A stretch of 64,000 nucleotides of DNA from assembly GCF_009913235.1 (NCBI RefSeq), contig NZ_CP047897.1, positions 2,479,001 to 2,543,000 on the forward strand, in the 5' to 3' direction. Position numbers and translations under genes: made by a program. Shown one piece after another: positions 10,838 through 56,762 of the stretch (position 1 is its first letter; each line of letters begins with the position of its first letter). This DNA comes from Nibribacter ruber (GTDB lineage: Bacteria; Bacteroidota; Bacteroidia; Cytophagales; Hymenobacteraceae). The notes beneath the pieces were generated by a model. That model made no database searches, had not been told where the DNA came from, and was given only the letters and a program-made list of their open reading frames with translations.

Positions 10838-10878
10838 GAAAGCGCCCGTTGCCTCACCGCAACGGGCGCTTTCGTTTT
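10838..10878 (+). terminator. gcvP terminator
   Basis: 15-bp stem GAAAGCGCCCGTTGC / GCAACGGGCGCTTTC, loop of 6, then GTTTTT which is the left end of a 38-bp palindrome. Confidence 0.9.
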
Positions 10879-10910
10879 TGGCCTGTTTTCTAGGAAACAG
10901 GCCAAAAACG
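10873..10910. repeat. 38-bp palindrome family copy, perfect arms
   Basis: Arms CGTTTTTGGCCTGTTTTC and GGAAACAGGCCAAAAACG, centre TA; its left arm supplies the U-tract of the gcvP terminator. Confidence 0.95.
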
Positions 10911-11059
10911 GCTATCAAGAATCCTGTTTGCTTAAGCAAGTTTGAAATCTCAGCTCATTCTCATCCCTCCTCTTCTTTGCTAATATGGCAGGTAAATGCT
11001 ACTAAAAAGGCATCGTTTTTGCTTCATATTTTAGCAAGTCTTTTCTCTTAAAAGGACTG

Positions 11060-23806: not shown

Positions 23807-23844
23807 CGTTTTTGGCCTGTTTTACAGAAAACAGGCCAAAAACG
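23807..23844. repeat. 38-bp palindrome family copy
   Basis: Arms CGTTTTTGGCCTGTTTTA and GAAAACAGGCCAAAAACG; downstream of the E1 gene. Confidence 0.92.
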
Positions 23845-23850
23845 GAAAGG

Positions 23851-44199: not shown

Positions 44200-44237
44200 C
44201 GTTTTTGGCCTGTTTTCTGGAAATTAGCCCAAAAACG
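44200..44237. repeat. 38-bp palindrome family copy at a start codon
   Basis: Arms CGTTTTTGGCCTGTTTTC and GAAATTAGCCCAAAAACG; ends 7 bp before the ATG of the Crp/Fnr-type gene. Confidence 0.9.
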
Positions 44238-44244
44238 CCTTTCT

Positions 44245-47668: not shown

Positions 47669-49084
47669 TTATCCTTTTACTTCTACTACTTCCTTCGCCC
47701 CAGTCTCCAGGTTTACTCTCAAAAGTTGGTGGGCGTTGGTATTGGTGACCCAGAGAGAACCTTGGTGCACCAAGACGTCATTGGGTTCTTGGAGTCCGTT
47801 CAGTAGGGTATGGATCTGTTGTTTCTCAAGGTCTAATACTTTGATTTTACCGTTGTAGGTGTCGGCTAAGTAGAGAAGGCCATTGTGGTAGGTGAGGCCC
47901 ATGCAGTGTTGGAGGTAGGCTTCGTCAAAATAACCGTCCTCATCGCCAAACTCAAAGAGGCCGCGGCCAATCAAGGTGGTGACGCTGGCTTTGTCCAGGT
48001 CTAAGGCCCGCACGGCGCTGGCTTCTGGGTCTGCTATGTAAAGGGTGCGGTCATGCAAGGTAAGGCCGCTAGGCTGGTTGAAGGCGGCTTCGCGCAGGGA
48101 ACCGTCTGCCAGGGCCTCGCGACCGGTGCCAGCGAAACGCAGAAGCTGGTTTGTCCCTAGATCCAGACGCAGAATCTGGTGATTGCCGGCGCTGGCAATG
48201 TAGAGTTGGTTATTGTCTAGGAGTAAATCCCAAGGGCTATTTGGCAATACAGTAGCGCCCAGTTGGTCATCAAAGAAGTAATAACTCAGCTCTCCGGTGC
48301 CAGCCAGAGTGGTTACTTCCTGCGTTTCTAGGTTAACGGCTCTAATGGCGTTGTTTTTGGCGTCTGCCACGTACAGCGTTTGGCCGTGCAAAGCCAAGCC
48401 GTGCGGTTCATTGAAGGTGACTTGCGCGTAGGGACCATTTGTAAATCCGGCTTGGCCAGCGCCAATGATTTCCAGTATCTGCCCGGTGGTAGAAAGTTTA
48501 AGAATGCGGTGATGGCCACTGTCTGACAAGTATAGGTTGCCTTCTGGGTCTGCGATGAGCTTAGAGGGAAACTTAAGCACTTGGGCTTCGGCCTGCTCTG
48601 GGGTAAACAGGAACGGTTCGCGGTTGATTTGGTCCCCGAAGTCCTTGATCAGTTGGTCTAGGTGCGGTTTGATGATGTCATAGATGCCCTCGCCCGCCTT
48701 CTGGCCAATCACCTTGCCATTTGGGTCTATGAGTACTACGGTGGGCCAGGCGTTGACGGCGTAGTGTTTCCAGACCTCAAAGTCTGCGTCATTGACCACC
48801 GGGTGCGTAATGCCAAACTTCAAAATGGCCTGCTTGATGGCCTCGTGGCTTTTCTCGGCGGTGAACTTAGCCGAATGCACGCCTATGATGACCAGTTCAT
48901 TGGGGTATTCTCTTTCCAGACGGTGCAAGTCTGGCATGAGGTGCTGACAGTTGATGCACCCGTAGGTCCAGAAATCCAACAGCACAATCTTTCCCCTGAA
49001 ATCTTTGAGAGTGTAGGAGCGGTCTGTGTTGAGCCAGCCGTGTTTGGTGTTTATTTCTGGGGCGTTGACAACTCCTGTTAGCAT
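47669..49084 (-). CDS. NHLRC2-like thioredoxin/NHL-repeat protein
   Basis: 471 aa from MLTGVVNAPEINTKHGWLN; 12 more codons are open upstream. The N-terminal thioredoxin-like domain has IVLLDFWTYGCINCQHLMPD (CxxC as C-I-N-C) and NAWPTVVLIDPNG; the rest is six NHL repeats (FNEPHGLALHGQTLYVADAK and similar) forming a propeller. This is the layout of NHLRC2. No signal peptide, so probably cytoplasmic; the function in bacteria is unknown. A 38-bp palindrome lies just downstream of the stop. Confidence 0.9.
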   Translation of the reverse strand: MLTGVVNAPEINTKHGWLNTDRSYTLKDFRGKIVLLDFWTYGCINCQHLMPDLHRLEREYPNELVIIGVHSAKFTAEKSHEAIKQAILKFGITHPVVNDADFEVWKHYAVNAWPTVVLIDPNGKVIGQKAGEGIYDIIKPHLDQLIKDFGDQINREPFLFTPEQAEAQVLKFPSKLIADPEGNLYLSDSGHHRILKLSTTGQILEIIGAGQAGFTNGPYAQVTFNEPHGLALHGQTLYVADAKNNAIRAVNLETQEVTTLAGTGELSYYFFDDQLGATVLPNSPWDLLLDNNQLYIASAGNHQILRLDLGTNQLLRFAGTGREALADGSLREAAFNQPSGLTLHDRTLYIADPEASAVRALDLDKASVTTLIGRGLFEFGDEDGYFDEAYLQHCMGLTYHNGLLYLADTYNGKIKVLDLEKQQIHTLLNGLQEPNDVLVHQGSLWVTNTNAHQLLRVNLETGAKEVVEVKG

Positions 49085-49203
49085 AGAAAATAGTTTGATG
49101 GGTAGATAGGCATTGGGCAATATTTTCTTAACCCCGGCTCTCCAAAAAGGTTACACAGCCCGGCCCGCTAGCATATTTACTGGACACTTCTCAAGAAATG
49201 GGT

Positions 49204-49227: not shown

Positions 49228-49710
49228 ATGACACCAAACCTGTATTTTTCTGATTTTGGCATGATTCTGCTTTTCCTGATAGGCGGGGTGGTGTTTGTGG
49301 CGCTCGGGCTTTTTGCCAGCCGGCTACTGCGTCCCAACAACCCCAACTCAGAGAAGCTGGCCACCTATGAGTCGGGGGAGGAGGCTTTGGGCAACGCCTG
49401 GGGTGCTTTCAATCCGCGCTTTTACGTGATTGCCCTGGTTTTTCTCTTGTTTGAAGTAGAGCTGGTGTTTCTCTTCCCATGGGCTGTGGTGTTTGGCGAT
49501 AAAAATTTGATGGAAGCTACAGACGGTGCCTGGGGTTGGTTTGCGGTGGCCGAGATGTTCTTCTTCGTGCTGGTCTTGGCCTTGGGCCTGGCCTACGCGT
49601 GGGTGAAAGGCCATTTGGATTGGATTAAGCCGAAGCCGGTGGTGCCCAAGAGCCGCTCTAAGATTCCGGGCAGTTTCTACCAGCAGGTCAATGACAAGTA
49701 TAAGAAATAG
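49228..49710 (+). CDS. nuoA: NADH-quinone oxidoreductase subunit A
   Basis: 160 aa. Three TM helices: about 9-30 (FGMILLFLIGGVVFVALGLF), 72-97 (VIALVFLLFEVELVFLFPWA) and 110-130 (FAVAEMFFFVLVLALGLAYA). The segment EKLATYESGEEALGNAWGAF is the conserved NuoA loop. The C-terminus is longer than usual and basic. NuoA is part of the membrane arm of complex I near the quinone site. A TAGTTTTG box lies 17 bp before the ATG. A 38-bp palindrome separates it from nuoB. Confidence 0.95.
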   Translation: MTPNLYFSDFGMILLFLIGGVVFVALGLFASRLLRPNNPNSEKLATYESGEEALGNAWGAFNPRFYVIALVFLLFEVELVFLFPWAVVFGDKNLMEATDGAWGWFAVAEMFFFVLVLALGLAYAWVKGHLDWIKPKPVVPKSRSKIPGSFYQQVNDKYKK

Positions 49711-49717
49711 TATCATT

Positions 49718-49755
49718 CGTTTTTAGCCTCTTTTCAGCAAAACAACCCAAAAACG
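49718..49755. repeat. 38-bp palindrome family copy inside the nuo operon
   Basis: Arms CGTTTTTAGCCTCTTTTC and CAAAACAACCCAAAAACG; lies between nuoA and nuoB and ends 6 bp before the nuoB ATG. Confidence 0.85.
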
Positions 49756-49761
49756 CACCCC

Positions 49762-50292
49762 ATGTTCCCCACAGACAAAACCGGCGAAGGAGGCGTAGTC
49801 ATCGCCAAACTAGATGACCTGCTCAACTGGGCCAGGCTGTCGGCGCTGTGGCCCATGGGATTTGGGCTGGCCTGCTGTGCCATTGAGATGATGGGCGCGT
49901 ATGGCTCTAACTATGACATGGACAGGTTCGGGATTCTGCCTAGGCCTTCCCCTCGCCAGAGCGACGTAATGATTGTGGCCGGCACCGTCACTTTCAAAAT
50001 GGCCGACCGCATCCGCCGCCTCTATGAACAGATGCCCGAGCCACGGTATGTCATCTCCATGGGCTCTTGTTCTAACTGCGGAGGCCCATACTGGGAGCAC
50101 GGCTATCATGTGGTCAAAGGCGTGGACCGCATCATTCCGGTAGACGTCTACGTGCCCGGCTGCCCTCCTAGGCCAGAGGCGTTGATTGGCGGCTTCCTGA
50201 AACTGCAGGAACTCATCAGAAAGGAAAGCATCACCGCGCCCAGAGCGGTGTTGCGGTTGTTGGACCAGGAGAAGACCCAAGAAAACGCCTAG
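49762..50292 (+). CDS. nuoB: NADH-quinone oxidoreductase subunit B
   Basis: 176 aa. The N2 cluster ligands are visible: [38 protein letters not shown] and [13 protein letters not shown]. NuoB holds the last iron-sulfur cluster before quinone. The ATG lies 6 bp after the end of a 38-bp palindrome that takes the place of a normal leader. nuoC starts 2 bp after the stop. Confidence 0.97.
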
Positions 50293-50294
50293 CC

Positions 50295-50846
50295 ATGACT
50301 TTCGCAGAAATCAAAGACTTGTTGCTTACCCAGTTCGGGCCAACCGTAATTTTGGGCGAAGAGGTGCATCCTTTGCAGTCTTATGCGTTGTTGGCGGTGT
50401 GGGCTTTGCCTGAGGTGGCGGAGTTTCTGCATGACGAGGAACAGACCTATTTTGACTTTCTCTCTTGCCTCACGGGCGTGGACAACGGCCCTGAGGCCGG
50501 CACTATGGAAGTAATTTATCACCTCTATTCTATCCCGTACAACCACCATTTTGCGTTAAAGGTACAGGTACCCCGCAATCTACCCGACCAGAATCTGCCC
50601 GCCGTACCTACGGTGAGTCATGTGTGGCGGTCAGCGGATTGGCATGAGCGCGAAGTCTATGATCTGGTAGGCATTTCGTTTCCAGACCACCCAGACCTGC
50701 GGCGCATTCTGTGCGCCGCCGACTGGGAAGGGCATCCGCTCAGGAAAGATTACACGTGGCCGGCAGAATACCATGGCATCAAAGTGCCCTATGACCGGCA
50801 CAATGAAGAGAATGGTGTTAAAAACGATTGGAATCTACCCTCATGA
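50295..50846 (+). CDS. nuoC: NADH-quinone oxidoreductase subunit C
   Basis: 183 aa. Conserved 30-kDa subunit features: FDFLSCLTGVDNGPEAGT, VSHVWRSADWHEREVYDLVG (the signature) and GISFPDHPDLRRILCAADWE. The nuoC and nuoD genes are separate here, whereas some Bacteroidota have a nuoCD fusion. The stop TGA overlaps the ATG of the next gene as ATGA, so translation of the next gene is probably coupled. Confidence 0.95.
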   Translation: MTFAEIKDLLLTQFGPTVILGEEVHPLQSYALLAVWALPEVAEFLHDEEQTYFDFLSCLTGVDNGPEAGTMEVIYHLYSIPYNHHFALKVQVPRNLPDQNLPAVPTVSHVWRSADWHEREVYDLVGISFPDHPDLRRILCAADWEGHPLRKDYTWPAEYHGIKVPYDRHNEENGVKNDWNLPS

Positions 50847-51316
50847 GAAAGATTAGAAATATGTTCGATTTTCTGGCCCTGCTGTTTGGCGTGAGAACCA
50901 GAAACAACTTTGAAGGCCGAAGAGGCTTTTGGGCCAGCTTTACCCGCACCCTAGGCCCGGTCATCAGGCTGTCCATGATAGTGCTGGTAGGCGGCTTTGT
51001 ACTGATGCTACTAGTCTATGCATTGACTTACAACATGGTCAAAGAACGCAACACCGCCTTGAAATTAAATCGCCTGAGCGGACAGATTGCGCAGTATTAT
51101 CAAACGCGGGCTATGCTTCCGGCGCACTTGAATGAGGTGGTAGCCAATGACCCGATGATTAGAAACAACACTTTTGACAGCTGGGGAAACCGAGTGGTGT
51201 ATCAACCTCTACTACCCAACCAAGGTTTTAAACTGACATCGGCGGGCAAGGACAGAAAGATCAACACGGATGATGACATTGAACGGCTGGTCACCCAGGC
51301 ACCGGCGGTCAATTAA
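50843..51316 (+). CDS. GspG-like membrane protein embedded in the nuo operon
   Basis: 157 aa. The ATG at 50843 overlaps the nuoC stop as ATGA. One TM helix at about residues 35-58 (LSMIVLVGGFVLMLLVYALT) is followed by a short helix (LKLNRLSGQIAQYYQTRAML) and a C-terminal part with FDSWGNRVVYQPLLPNQGFK, LTSAGKDRKINTDDDIERL. That D/S-WG-N-x-x-x-Y ... S-G-x-D-x-x-x-x-T-x-D-D-I pattern is the C-terminal calcium-binding signature of type II secretion major pseudopilins (GspG). The N-terminus lacks the prepilin cleavage site, so it is probably a tail-anchored relative rather than a pilin. It sits between nuoC and nuoD, where no complex I subunit is known. Confidence 0.75.
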   Translation: MRKIRNMFDFLALLFGVRTRNNFEGRRGFWASFTRTLGPVIRLSMIVLVGGFVLMLLVYALTYNMVKERNTALKLNRLSGQIAQYYQTRAMLPAHLNEVVANDPMIRNNTFDSWGNRVVYQPLLPNQGFKLTSAGKDRKINTDDDIERLVTQAPAVN

Positions 51317-51323
51317 CCACTTC

Positions 51324-51361
51324 CGTTTTTGCCCTGTTTTCCAGAAATTAGCCTAAAAACG
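51324..51361. repeat. 38-bp palindrome family copy inside the nuo operon
   Basis: Arms CGTTTTTGCCCTGTTTTC and GAAATTAGCCTAAAAACG, centre CA; ends 11 bp before the nuoD start. Confidence 0.88.
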
Positions 51362-51372
51362 AATTATATCTT

Positions 51373-52578
51373 TTGGCCACCACGCGCTACACAGAGTACC
51401 TGCTCCAATCTGAACCCAACAAGTTTGACGTAGACAGCCTGCAACACGGCGAACTGCTCTTGAACATGGGTCCGCAACACCCGGCCACGCACGGAGTTCT
51501 GCGGCTGGAGGTGGTGACAGACGGCGAGCTGGTGGTAGACGTGGTGCCGCACATTGGGTACCTGCACCGTTGTTTTGAGAAGCACGCCGAGGCCCTGACT
51601 TATCAGCAGTCCATCCCGTACGTGGACCGCATGGACTACCTGGCCGCCATGAATTCTGAGCACGTATGGTGCATGGCCGTGGAAAAGATGCTGGGCCTAG
51701 ACGGGCAGCTGCCCAAGCGCGTGGAATACATACGCGTGCTAGTGGCCGAGCTCAACCGCATTGCCTCCCATTTTCTGGCTATTGGCACCTACGCCATTGA
51801 CATTGGGGCCTTCACGCCGTTTCTGTGGCTCCTGCGGGACCGTGAGCACATTCAGCGTCTGCTGGAGTGGGTGACGGGCGCGCGCATGCTCTACAACTAC
51901 ATCTGGGTGGGTGGTTTGTACTATGACCTGCCCGTGGGCTTTGAACAGCGCTGCCGCGAATTCATCCAGTACCTCCTGCCCAAGCTCACCGAACTGGACA
52001 CGCTCCTGCTTCAGAATAAAATCTTCATTGACCGAACCGCCAACGTGGGTACTTTGCCCTTAGACGTGGCCATCAATTACGGATGCTCGGGCCCTATGCT
52101 ACGCGGCTCGGGGCTTCGGTTTGATTTGCGCCGGGTGGATGGCTATTCAGTCTATACAGAGTTGGACTTTGATATTCCTATTGGGCAGGGCTTGGCTGGC
52201 GCCGTGGGCGATTGCTGGGATAGAAACTACGTGCGCGCACAGGAGTGCCATGAGAGCATCAAAATCATTTCGCAGTGCCTGGACAAACTGGAAGGCGACC
52301 ACAAGCGCACCCCAGACTTCGACCCGCAGGCCATGTGCCCCAAAAAGATACGCCCCACGGCGCAGGACTTCTATTTCAGGGCAGAAACACCACGCGGCGA
52401 ACTAGGCTACTTCTTTAGAACCACAGGCCGCACCGATGTGCCGTTCCGGTGCAAAGGCCGCTCGCCGTGTTTTTCCAATTTATCAGTCTTGCCTGAAATC
52501 AGCAAAGGTTGTATGGTCTCTGACCTCGTTGCCATTGTAGGCTCGGTGGACATTGTCTTGGGTGAGCTGGATAGGTAG
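51373..52578 (+). CDS. nuoD: NADH-quinone oxidoreductase subunit D
   Basis: 401 aa, start TTG 11 bp after a 38-bp palindrome; no in-frame ATG lies before MGPQHPATHGVLRLEVV, which is too far inside. Family marks: HPATHGVLRLEVVTDGELVV, PHIGYLHRCFEKHAE, YVDRMDYLAAMN and the C-terminal VGSVDIVLGELDR. NuoD lines the quinone cavity with NuoB. The remaining nuo genes (E to N) do not follow, so the complex I genes are split in this genome. Confidence 0.95.
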   Translation: MATTRYTEYLLQSEPNKFDVDSLQHGELLLNMGPQHPATHGVLRLEVVTDGELVVDVVPHIGYLHRCFEKHAEALTYQQSIPYVDRMDYLAAMNSEHVWCMAVEKMLGLDGQLPKRVEYIRVLVAELNRIASHFLAIGTYAIDIGAFTPFLWLLRDREHIQRLLEWVTGARMLYNYIWVGGLYYDLPVGFEQRCREFIQYLLPKLTELDTLLLQNKIFIDRTANVGTLPLDVAINYGCSGPMLRGSGLRFDLRRVDGYSVYTELDFDIPIGQGLAGAVGDCWDRNYVRAQECHESIKIISQCLDKLEGDHKRTPDFDPQAMCPKKIRPTAQDFYFRAETPRGELGYFFRTTGRTDVPFRCKGRSPCFSNLSVLPEISKGCMVSDLVAIVGSVDIVLGELDR

Positions 52579-53836: not shown

Positions 53837-53924
53837 ATTCTAGTCCATTCTGATTCAGTAACTTGCACCCCGCTAAAACAAAATTGAGTTTACTTTTGTG
53901 AATTCTCATGGTGGCTTTTGCGTT

Positions 53925-54761
53925 ATGTCCCTATTTCACCCAAATTTTAACCGTTTGAATCTTAGAAAGTATGTTGCGGTGCCCTTGGTGTGGCTTTCTC
54001 TGCTAGGAGGAGTACAGGCCCAAACCACACCAGAGGTAGTAGAAGTTATTGCGTCCGTCGCAGAAAGACTACCCGCCGCCCAGGCAGACTCCATCCTGAA
54101 GGCCCAGCACAAACAAAGCAACAGGCAGTTCTTGAAAAATGCGGTGTTGCCCTCAGCTGTTTTAATAGCCGCCGGCATCTATACCATCAAAGACAACGGC
54201 TTTTACAGCAGCTATGACGCCAAGCAGGACGCCCGTACAGAGTTTCCGCACTTCAGCACCAAGATAGACGACTACATTTTCTTCGTGCCGATGGTGGGCT
54301 TGTACGGCTTCAACTTATTTTCTTCCCAGAACAAGCATGACATCCGCCGACAGACGGGCCTGCTTCTGGCATCTGGCGCCTTGGCCACGGCCATCATCTA
54401 CCCTACCAAAATACTGTCGGGGCAGGAGCGGCCCAACGGTCTTCCCAGAGCATTTCCCTCTGGGCATACGGCCTACGCGTTTACCATTGCCACCATCGCA
54501 GACAAGGAGTTCAGAGACAAAAGCCCCTGGATCAGCGTGGGCGCCTACACCATTGCCAGCGCCACGGGCGTGATGCGGGTCTTAAACAATGAGCACTGGA
54601 TGTCTGATGTACTGGCCGGCGCCGGCATTGGAATCTTATCTGTAAATACCGTGTACTGGCTGCATGACAAGTTTGCCCGCAACAAAGGCCTGAACGCCCG
54701 CATGGCGCCTACCATTTTGCCCAACGGCCAACTGGGCATGGGACTGGCGGTGAAATTTTAA
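53925..54761 (+). CDS. PAP2-family phosphatase
   Basis: 278 aa from the ATG giving MSLFHPNFNRLNLRKYV; an upstream GTG adds nine codons. The N-terminus has a signal or first membrane segment (LVWLSLLGGVQAQTT). PAP2 motifs: KILSGQERPNG (K-x6-RP), PSGHTAYAF and TGVMRVLNNEHWMSDVLAG (R-x5-H-x3-D). Members dephosphorylate lipid phosphates such as phosphatidate, undecaprenyl diphosphate or lipid A at the inner membrane surface. Here a lipid carrier role is likely but not shown. The stop codon is followed at once by a period-7 tract. Confidence 0.87.
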   Translation: MSLFHPNFNRLNLRKYVAVPLVWLSLLGGVQAQTTPEVVEVIASVAERLPAAQADSILKAQHKQSNRQFLKNAVLPSAVLIAAGIYTIKDNGFYSSYDAKQDARTEFPHFSTKIDDYIFFVPMVGLYGFNLFSSQNKHDIRRQTGLLLASGALATAIIYPTKILSGQERPNGLPRAFPSGHTAYAFTIATIADKEFRDKSPWISVGAYTIASATGVMRVLNNEHWMSDVLAGAGIGILSVNTVYWLHDKFARNKGLNARMAPTILPNGQLGMGLAVKF

Positions 54762-55201: not shown

Positions 55202-55248
55202 ACGGTAATTGGTAATGAACAGCCAGCAACTAACAATCCACCAATTCT
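55202..55248. repeat. period-7 tract abutting the nnr start codon
   Basis: TAATTGG, TAATGAA, CAGCCAG, CAACTAA, CAATCCA, CCAATTC in phase; it holds CAGCAACTAAC, the inverse complement of part of the tract at 54761, and ends 2 bp before the nnr ATG. Confidence 0.75.
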
Positions 55249-55250
55249 CT

Positions 55251-56762
55251 ATGAAAATCCTTACCGCCGCCCAGACCAGAGAAGCAGATGCCTATACCAT
55301 TCAACAAGAGCCAGTTTCTTCTCTGGACTTGATGGAACGGGCAGCGGCGGCATTGGTGGCGTGGCTCAGGCAACGGTATTCTGCCCAGGTGCCGTTTGTC
55401 TTCTTCTGCGGTCCCGGCAACAACGGCGGCGACGGCCTGGCGGCGGCTAGGCTTCTCTTTCAGGCGGGGTATGAGGTGCAGGTGTTTTTGGTGGAGGAAG
55501 CTGGCCAGTGCAAATCTCAAGACTTTACACAGAACCTTCAGCGGCTTCCTTCAGAGATTTCTACCCATACGCTTCAGGCCGGCTTTGGCTTTCCTGAGAT
55601 GGAGTTTGGCGCCATTGTCGTAGACGCGCTCTTCGGGTCTGGGCTGTCCCGGCCTTTGCAAGGCGTGTATGCGCAGGTAGCGGAGGAGATTAATCAGGCA
55701 GGTGTCACCGTGGTGGCGGTAGATGTACCCTCGGGACTCTTCACAGATGCGCCCACGCCAGAAGACGCGGTTGTTGTGCAGGCTACCTATACGGTCACCT
55801 TTGAACGCCCTAAGCTGGCCTTTCTTCTGCCTAAATCAGGGGCGTGGGTAGGCGAATGGCACGCAGTCCCCATCGGGCTGCACCCAGAGTTCCTGCAACA
55901 GGTGGCCACGCCGTATCAACTGCTTACAAATGCTTACGTGAAAAGCCTGCTCAAGGCCCGGCAGAAATATGCGCACAAAGGCACATACGGGCACGCGCTG
56001 CTGATTGGCGGAAGCTATGGAAAGATGGGTGCCTTGGTTTTAGCGGCCAAAGCTGCCTTGCGCGCGGGAATAGGTTTGTTGACGGTGCAAATTCCGCAGG
56101 TGGGTTATTCTATTGTACAGACCGCCGTGCCAGAGGCCATGGCCCTAACAGATGCGCATGAGCTGCACTTTACCCGGTTCATGGGTCAGCCAGAGACGTA
56201 TGAGTGTATAGGCATAGGACCGGGCCTGGGCCAGGCCGAAGACACCCGGCTGGCGCTTGAAAACTTATTCCGGCAGCATTTGCCGCCTTTGGTCCTGGAC
56301 GCAGATGCCCTCAACCTTCTGGCCGCTGACCGAACCTTGCTCAGAACCCTCCCCCAGGACACCATTCTCACGCCCCACCTGAAGGAGTTTGAACGCTTGG
56401 CCGGTCCTGCCACAGATGATTTTCACCGGCTGCAGCTGCTACAAAGCTTTTGCCAGGAACACAGGTGCTATGTGGTTTTGAAGGGGGCGCACAGCTGCGT
56501 TGGCACTCCTACCGGCGATTTCTACTTCAACACCACCGGCAATCCGGGCATGGCCACCGGCGGCTCAGGAGACGTCTTAACGGGCATCTTGACCGCGTTG
56601 CGGGCGCAGGGACATAGTGCCTTAGAGACATGCTTATTGGGCGTGTATCTGCATGGCTTGGCCGGAGACCTGGCCGCGAAGGAAATGGGACAGGCTTCAT
56701 TGATTGCTTCAGACCTAACTACTTATCTGGGAAAGGCATTTCTAGCTTTGGAGGCTAGTTAA
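55251..56762 (+). CDS. nnr: bifunctional NAD(P)HX epimerase and ADP-dependent dehydratase
   Basis: 503 aa from MKILTAAQTREADAYTI, the usual start; an upstream in-frame TTG is inside a period-7 tract. The N-terminal YjeF_N domain has FCGPGNNGGDGLAAARLLFQ and VAVDVPSGLFTDAP; the C-terminal sugar-kinase-like domain has IGIGPGLGQAEDTRLAL, VLDADALNLL, ILTPHLKEFERL and GNPGMATGGSGDVLTGI. It repairs hydrated NADH and NADPH. Length is normal for the fused form. Confidence 0.95.
   Translation: MKILTAAQTREADAYTIQQEPVSSLDLMERAAAALVAWLRQRYSAQVPFVFFCGPGNNGGDGLAAARLLFQAGYEVQVFLVEEAGQCKSQDFTQNLQRLPSEISTHTLQAGFGFPEMEFGAIVVDALFGSGLSRPLQGVYAQVAEEINQAGVTVVAVDVPSGLFTDAPTPEDAVVVQATYTVTFERPKLAFLLPKSGAWVGEWHAVPIGLHPEFLQQVATPYQLLTNAYVKSLLKARQKYAHKGTYGHALLIGGSYGKMGALVLAAKAALRAGIGLLTVQIPQVGYSIVQTAVPEAMALTDAHELHFTRFMGQPETYECIGIGPGLGQAEDTRLALENLFRQHLPPLVLDADALNLLAADRTLLRTLPQDTILTPHLKEFERLAGPATDDFHRLQLLQSFCQEHRCYVVLKGAHSCVGTPTGDFYFNTTGNPGMATGGSGDVLTGILTALRAQGHSALETCLLGVYLHGLAGDLAAKEMGQASLIASDLTTYLGKAFLALEAS

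Follow-up and report, generated by a model that had tools for sequence, protein, structure and literature searches.

A GspG-like membrane protein gene between nuoC and nuoD that outlasts the nuo genes in Rufibacter

Results

The locus

The stretch of DNA analysed here (the window, 64,000 nucleotides) carries four genes for complex I subunits and, between nuoC and nuoD, an open reading frame of 157 codons that we call X. The features of the locus are the following.

47669–49120, minus strand: thioredoxin-like/NHL-repeat gene, left flank of the X locus (Pfam; synteny)
49228–49710, plus strand: nuoA of the second (scattered) complex I (Pfam Oxidored_q4, E 1.3e-32)
49762–50292, plus strand: nuoB (Pfam Oxidored_q6, E 1.4e-28)
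50295–50846, plus strand: nuoC (Pfam Complex1_30kDa, E 2.6e-42)
50843–50846, plus strand: ATGA, the start of X shared with the stop (TGA) of nuoC (sequence)
50843–51316, plus strand: X, predicted membrane protein of 157 aa with a single span and a C-terminal domain of the GspG type (ORF; family-level T2SSG match; profile A3 against PDB)
50969–51025, plus strand: codons of the predicted TM helix of X, residues 43–61 (hydropathy; AlphaFold2 model)
51239–51277, plus strand: putative Ca2+ loop S-A-G-K-D-R-K-I-N-T-D-D-D, codons 133–145 of X (A3 alignment; HMMER alignment with GspG chain 3g20)
51324–51361, plus strand: imperfect palindrome between X and nuoD, arms 51324–51341 and 51344–51361, 72% complementary
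51373–52578, plus strand: nuoD (Pfam Complex1_49kDa, E 1.5e-83)
53898–54761, plus strand: PAP2-family phosphatase gene, right flank of the X locus (Pfam PAP2, E 3.9e-13; synteny)
55209–56762, plus strand: NAD(P)H-hydrate dehydratase/epimerase gene, right flank of the X locus (Pfam; 16/16 genus genomes)

An earlier note on this DNA had described an ORF whose ATG overlaps the nuoC stop, with nuoD downstream, and both sequence and Pfam agree with that description. X is a real gene and more than a chance ORF, because it occurs in half of the 16 Rufibacter genomes (the window's included), has no internal stop in any of its eight copies there and is under purifying selection. The single TM helix proposed in the note also held up: residues 43–61 form the most hydrophobic segment of the protein (mean hydropathy 2.61). 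In all eight Rufibacter copies the residues before this segment carry a net charge between +3 and +7, and this basic N-terminus suggests an N-in, C-out topology. The left-flank gene is present in 15 of the 16 Rufibacter genomes (the sequence of G012 ends at a contig end). In G006 it matches a pair of ORFs that overlap (345 and 156 aa, L049:12493–13912), perhaps owing to a frameshift.

The palindrome before nuoD, to which the note had drawn attention, does exist, but there is nothing special to the operon about it. It is one member of a REP-like family of palindromes of about 38 bp (CGTTTTTGGCCTGTTTTC...) with 31 sites in the 64-kb window, 22 of them with both arms recognised (for example 10875–10912, 23809–23846, 44202–44239, 49720–49757 and 51324–51361). 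The window contains 53 arm matches compared with 0–2 in ten mononucleotide shuffles, and 30 of the 31 sites lie outside the picked ORFs (at least 100 aa). The folding of the X–nuoD copy is only slightly better than that of shuffled sequence (z −1.86; 8 of 200 shuffles as good). Because it belongs to a 31-site repeat family, the palindrome is uninformative on an X–nuoD operon. Parts of the repeated palindrome also occur in other Rufibacter loci.

Likeness of X to GspG

Taken alone, X matches the Pfam family T2SSG (PF08334) with E 0.016 (15.7 bits, below the cut-off of 21) and the NCBIfam family gspG (TIGR01710) with E 0.022 (14.8 bits, below the cut-off of 88.85). A search of its own genome with PF08334 returned X alone, and hence we reject the idea of paralogues there. 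The curated PF08334 cut-off is passed by the relative in G047 (35 bits) and by the whole frame of G011 (22.1 bits). For more sensitive comparisons we used a profile of 15 sequences, eight Rufibacter copies and seven distant relatives (A3), alongside a Rufibacter-only profile (A1). Every one of the 15 A3 sequences is matched by PF08334 at E ≤ 0.1, the best of them at 1.2e-8. Searched against the PDB, A3 returns GspG chains for all of its top eight matches (best E 1.2e-6), while phmmer with X alone finds no match and A1 yields chance matches only, without a GspG chain. The significant PDB match thus depends on the seven distant relatives in A3.

We obtained AlphaFold2 models for the X of the window and for the copy of R. 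latericius (mean pLDDT 69.8 and 68.9). Both contain a long helix (residues 26–89 and 28–86, respectively) and two adjacent strands, with low confidence in the Ca loop. Foldseek found nothing significant for either model (best GspG E 1.7 and 1.3), and in the second of these runs an unrelated enzyme stood level with GspG. VIA-align, which re-examines Foldseek's candidates, ranks pilins and pseudopilins first, although several of its Z values are below 8. For the first model the top eight rows are all pilins or pseudopilins, five of them GspG (Z 8.3–7.1, rmsd 2.8–3.9, 80–92 aligned), and unrelated rows begin at Z 4.3; for the second model the same holds for the top 12 rows (Z 9.0–5.2), with unrelated rows from Z 4.7. 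Judged from these models, X is predicted to have the pilin fold, that is, a long N-terminal helix and a small beta domain. The GspG-like C-terminus that the earlier note had seen is thus real at the level of the family, by the A3 profile and by VIA-align on two models. Its fold match to GspG stands in so far as VIA-align puts pilins first; by Foldseek alone it is not significant.

X shares with GspG/PulG/EpsG, the major pseudopilin of the T2SS, the long N-terminal helix and the C-terminal signature D-x-W ... S-x-G-x-D ... T-x-D-D-hydrophobic. It differs from GspG in staying below the curated PF08334 and TIGR01710 cut-offs. The signature contains the putative calcium loop, a stretch that HMMER aligns with GspG chain 3g20. 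G135, D137, T142, D144 and D145 of X are invariant in all 15 A3 sequences, and the ligand frame G-x-D-x(4)-T-x-D-D is kept in 15 of the 15 aligned homologues. In the paper on 3G20 (PMC3396595), the results section gives D117, T122 and D125 as side-chain Ca ligands, and the discussion section counts two aspartates alone. The spacing of the three residues in that results section is exactly that of D137, T142 and D145 of X. The PERCAL calcium motif, which the same paper describes for bacterial peroxidases and for pseudopilin 3G20, has the same G-x-D-x(4)-T-x-D-D frame as X, but differs at position 4, where G is replaced by R in the X of the window. Two of the 15 homologues contain the strict PERCAL motif, and the X of the window is not among them. 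By its residues, X appears to possess the Ca2+-binding loop of GspG, and its periplasmic domain is probably calcium-stabilised.

Pilin processing and secretion machinery

Prepilin peptidases cleave at a site of the type G|F-T-L-x-E directly before the TM helix, and the mature N-terminus of a pilin is the TM helix itself. X differs from GspG on both counts: it has no prepilin-peptidase site, as the earlier note had already remarked, and its TM segment starts about 40 residues inside the protein. The pattern [GA]-hydrophobic-x3-E is absent from the first 130 residues of 14 of the 15 homologues, among them all eight Rufibacter copies. The lone match (L122) lies just past the last hydrophobic stretch of its protein.

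The search for T2SS markers in Rufibacter covered the prepilin peptidase and GspF. Over the cut-off, Peptidase_A24 (PF01478) was found in none of the 16 genus genomes compared to 12 of 14 controls, and T2SSF (PF00482, GspF) in none compared to 13 of 14 controls; X also differs from GspG in that its genus has neither a T2SS peptidase nor a platform over the cut-off. Weak matches below the cut-off exist for Peptidase_A24 in two and for T2SSF in 13 of the 16 genomes. Because no peptidase site was found in its Rufibacter copies and its genus has no Peptidase_A24 or T2SSF over the cut-off, X does not qualify in these tests as a functional pseudopilin of a T2SS.

Distribution of X

The Rufibacter-only profile finds X in 8 of 204 genomes of the family, all of them Rufibacter. 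BLAST recovers the same proportion of the genus (8/16) and one distant match elsewhere, making 9 of 59 genomes. The order nuoABC–X–nuoD is found in the window genome (G000), G006 and G007. In all three X overlaps nuoC, by ATGA in the window and G007 and by 8 nt in G006. Five genomes (G003, G004, G008, G011, G014) carry X without nuoA–D between the same flanks, with three extra ORFs between the left flank and X in G014. Decayed nuo genes around X can be rejected in these genomes, as neither tblastn nor blastn detected remnants of nuoA–D in the five loci. Neither X nor nuoA–D is present in G001, G002, G005, G009, G010, G013 and G015, nor in G012 up to the contig end. In G007, the closest relative of the window genome, a 126-aa ORF without a Pfam match (E ≤ 0.001) lies between nuoB and nuoC (L052:8357–8737).

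Outside the genus, the same type of nuoD (62–84% identical) occurs in 15 of the 23 genomes searched. The earlier note had suggested checking the order nuoC–X–nuoD across relatives, and the outcome goes against its proposal of a complex I factor: X is absent within 1.5 kb of this nuoD in all 15 of these genomes. When 35 loci, the 15 nuoD loci from outside Rufibacter all among them, were searched locally with a profile, X likewise turned up only in the three nuo-bearing Rufibacter loci. Four of the outgroups examined within the family carry nuoA–D without X. In G023 nuoABCD are contiguous; in G018 a DUF5655 gene (with a NucS_C match below the cut-off too) lies between nuoC and nuoD, in G016 a DUF6794 gene between nuoB and nuoC, while in G022 nuoC and nuoD are separated by an SPFH gene together with other ORFs. 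Hence, X does not accompany this complex I throughout (it occurs in 3 of 3 Rufibacter genomes with the complex, but within 1.5 kb of nuoD in none of the 15 genomes outside the genus), and it is not lost with the complex either, since 5 of the 13 genus genomes without this nuoD keep it.

We inferred a species tree from six concatenated proteins of 20 genomes (some genes are missing for some genomes), rooted with a single outgroup. The tree supports a clade of G000, G007 and G013 (100), and the monophyly of the genus has a support of only 57. G006 is sister to a clade of ten genomes without these nuo genes (node 96; ten-genome clade 98), within which the X-bearing G003, G011, G004 and G014 are grouped (98). 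G008 falls with G001 (34), outside G006 and the ten-genome clade. Because the nuo genes together with X occur on both sides of the tree, the arrangement is most simply ancestral in Rufibacter. This implies that the complex was lost separately at least in the line of G008 and in the ten-genome clade, and also in the line of G013. It also implies that X survived at least two independent losses of the nuo genes, in G008 and in G003/G011/G004/G014, because the nuo-bearing G006 groups with the ten-genome clade to the exclusion of G008. X itself was also lost several times in the genus. In the tree of X the same four genomes also come together (0.87), but there G003 joins G014 and G004 (0.99) instead of G011, and G006 joins G008. 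These placements would fit some passing of X between species by transfer, which is conceivable.

Two sets of complex I genes

In addition to the nuo genes of the window, the window genome has a 14-gene nuo operon with another NuoD at about G000:C1:2271–2284.5 kb, with subunits A to N all supported by Pfam. The nuoD, nuoF and nuoH types of this operon are present in 16 of 16 genus genomes. A second nuoH lies at C1:1461989–1463050, where BLAST recognised no other nuo gene in the surrounding 19 kb, and nuoL/M/N-like genes lie at C1:4196424–4201096; a second nuoF was not found in the window genome. Because the window-type nuoD, this nuoH and the L/M/N-like set are found together, and only in the same three of the 16 genus genomes (G000, G006, G007), we infer that nuoABCD of the window, the second nuoH and the L/M/N-like set form one complex. 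This complex I, scattered over three places (window 49228–52578 included), is missing in 13 of the 16 Rufibacter genomes, and the 14-gene set is kept.

Selection on X and a conserved upstream element

X is under purifying selection, also after the loss of the nuo genes. Its dN/dS is 0.04–0.33 in every computable pair, many deep pairs being saturated. Between G000 and G007, which both have nuo, omega is 0.04–0.07, and among the nuo-less G003, G004 and G014 it is 0.11–0.29. Compared with its neighbours, X is ordinary in the pair G000–G007 (omega 0.069 versus 0.026–0.146 in the nuo genes). In the nuo-less pair G004–G014, it is the fastest of five genes (72% identity versus 89–99%; omega 0.16 versus 0.006–0.089 in the other genes compared). 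Between G000 and G006, which both have the nuo genes, X is 40–42% identical compared with 76–93% for nuoA–D.

In four X-only genomes of one clade, an identical 18-nt element (CTAATTATAGTACCTTTA) lies 68–121 nt upstream of X (L092:5921–5938, L093:5853–5870, L094:5876–5893, L096:5854–5871), and its surroundings diverge among the four. The element is not found with up to two mismatches in the G008 locus, the nuo-bearing loci or the other loci compared, or with up to three mismatches in the window. A scan of 1.2 Mb found a single exact copy, upstream of X in G004 (the X locus of G014 lay outside the sample). No regulon shared through this element emerged from that scan, and we rejected the idea; the element may be a promoter or operator specific to this gene.

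Distant relatives

Such relatives are sparse. Profile searches at the level of the order gave matches in 11 of 291 genomes, of which three are Rufibacter; one match, L123 in G039 (E 2.3e-4, positions 35–88 only), was later dropped from the family. At the level of the phylum, 25 of 395 genomes gave matches, 16 only at E above 1e-5. For 13 of these 16 the match stops within the helix part, no later than model position 98, and we do not count them as relatives. The distant relatives carry other N-terminal membrane parts, and the genes beside those examined are unrelated to one another. By eye, no nuo gene lies within about 1.5 kb of any of the eight non-Rufibacter matches at order level, nor beside the eight neighbourhoods read of the 24 non-Rufibacter matches at phylum level, and wider stretches of three distant-relative loci had no BLAST match to nuo references. 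We therefore reject a nuo-linked homologue of X in the neighbourhoods read. At the level of titles, we found no literature on this gene under nuo clusters of Bacteroidetes/Cytophagales, Rufibacter complex I or orphan GspG-like pseudopilins.

Discussion

Our results make it probable, though well short of certain, that X is an orphan, unprocessed domain of the GspG type that is anchored in the inner membrane and stands outside both complex I and a T2SS. The basic N-terminus would lie in the cytoplasm and be followed by one TM helix that would extend into the long helix. The small beta domain would be periplasmic, with a loop that may be held by bound Ca2+ as in GspG. X is unlikely to polymerise as a pseudopilus, because neither a cleavage site nor a prepilin peptidase nor a platform of the GspF type could be recognised. 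Most likely it acts as a fixed, calcium-stabilised periplasmic interaction module in the inner membrane, and it could serve as a scaffold or as a calcium-dependent sensor for a partner. Its position between nuoC and nuoD would then reflect arrival in a cluster that tolerates insertions, for which we count the unrelated genes within the nuo clusters of the outgroups (DUF5655, DUF6794, SPFH). The overlap with nuoC predicts probable co-transcription with the nuo genes, not co-function.

One could also see in X a passenger, selfish or almost neutral, that has no selected role and is on its way out of the genus. Its patchy presence in 8 of 16 genomes, its several losses and its fast evolution in the X-only pair G004–G014 are what one would expect of such a gene. 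The other side of the record makes this improbable: dN/dS is well below 1 in every pair that could be computed, none of the eight copies has an internal stop, and the 18-nt upstream element is perfectly conserved in four of the five X-only genomes.

The earlier note had considered X an accessory or assembly factor of complex I. Like such factors, X lies inside a nuo gene set with overlapping frames (in the window, G006 and G007), and all three Rufibacter genomes with this complex have it. It is also constrained like the nuo genes in the pair G000–G007 and evolves faster after their loss; no other argument for a link to complex I is as good, and we count it against our own reading. Unlike such factors, X is neither conserved nor lost with the complex. 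It was kept in five genomes that lost nuoABCD, the complex having disappeared at least twice independently, and it is found beside this nuoD in none of the 15 non-Rufibacter genomes. Furthermore, the other complex I (nuoD, nuoF, nuoH) occurs without X in eight of the 16 genus genomes, and between G000 and G006 the identity of X is far below that of nuoA–D. One would have to assume that X, as a factor of the second complex I, lingers after the loss of this complex or serves the remaining one. On the pattern of loss we reject this as the main reading and give it little chance of being right, although a facultative tie of X to complex I is imaginable.

We consider it just as doubtful that X acts as a true pseudopilin in a T2SS or type 4 filament system that is hidden or highly divergent. 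The profile and fold resemblance to GspG, the conserved Ca ligand frame and the T2SSF matches below the cut-off in 13 of 16 genomes would all suit such a role. Cytophaga hutchinsonii, which belongs to the same order as the host of X, the Cytophagales, offers a comparison. T2SS clusters exist in this species, and its putative T2SS comprises T2S-D/E/F/G and a Peptidase_A24 protein (PMC5553014). Its G protein is, like X, of the GspG family, but belongs to a T2SS cluster and is needed for cellulose use (PMC5553014), whereas X stands alone. None of the eight Rufibacter copies has the [GA]-hydrophobic-x3-E site, and neither Peptidase_A24 nor T2SSF exceeds the cut-off in any of the 16 genus genomes, compared to 12 and 13 of the 14 controls. 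About 40 residues precede the TM helix of X, unlike in mature pilins.

If X is indeed an orphan GspG-type domain outside complex I and the T2SS, it may belong to a wider class. Bacteroidota would then contain scattered GspG-type domains that are anchored in the membrane and not processed, share a conserved calcium site and differ in their N-terminal membrane parts and gene neighbourhoods. In them the pilin fold would be reused for a stationary, Ca2+-dependent module of the periplasm that takes part in no filament and no secretion machine, and one such domain would have entered the nuo cluster of Rufibacter and outlived it. For this broader proposal we see the arguments as evenly balanced. Should the calcium-site reading be true, Bacteroidota would gain stationary, non-filament uses of the pilin fold, and we would expect that some such proteins may at present be annotated automatically as pseudopilins of secretion systems. 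Our analysis also removes a tempting but probably wrong candidate for a complex I factor. It illustrates clearly how gene order and the overlap of frames can mislead, as relatives that lost the complex kept X.

Further nuo clusters were seen in the genus. G006 has a third one (L050, G006:C1:1219000–1236000) with the order A-B-C-D-H-I-(unlabelled ORF)-K-L-M-N-like; nuoE/F/G were not recognised within the stretch read. Another cluster occurs in G003, G004, G014, G002 and G012 (e.g., G004:C3:472835–485868), independent of X. There the nuoD match lies in a frame of 591–604 aa, perhaps a fused nuoCD, and the nuoF frame is 430–441 aa long.
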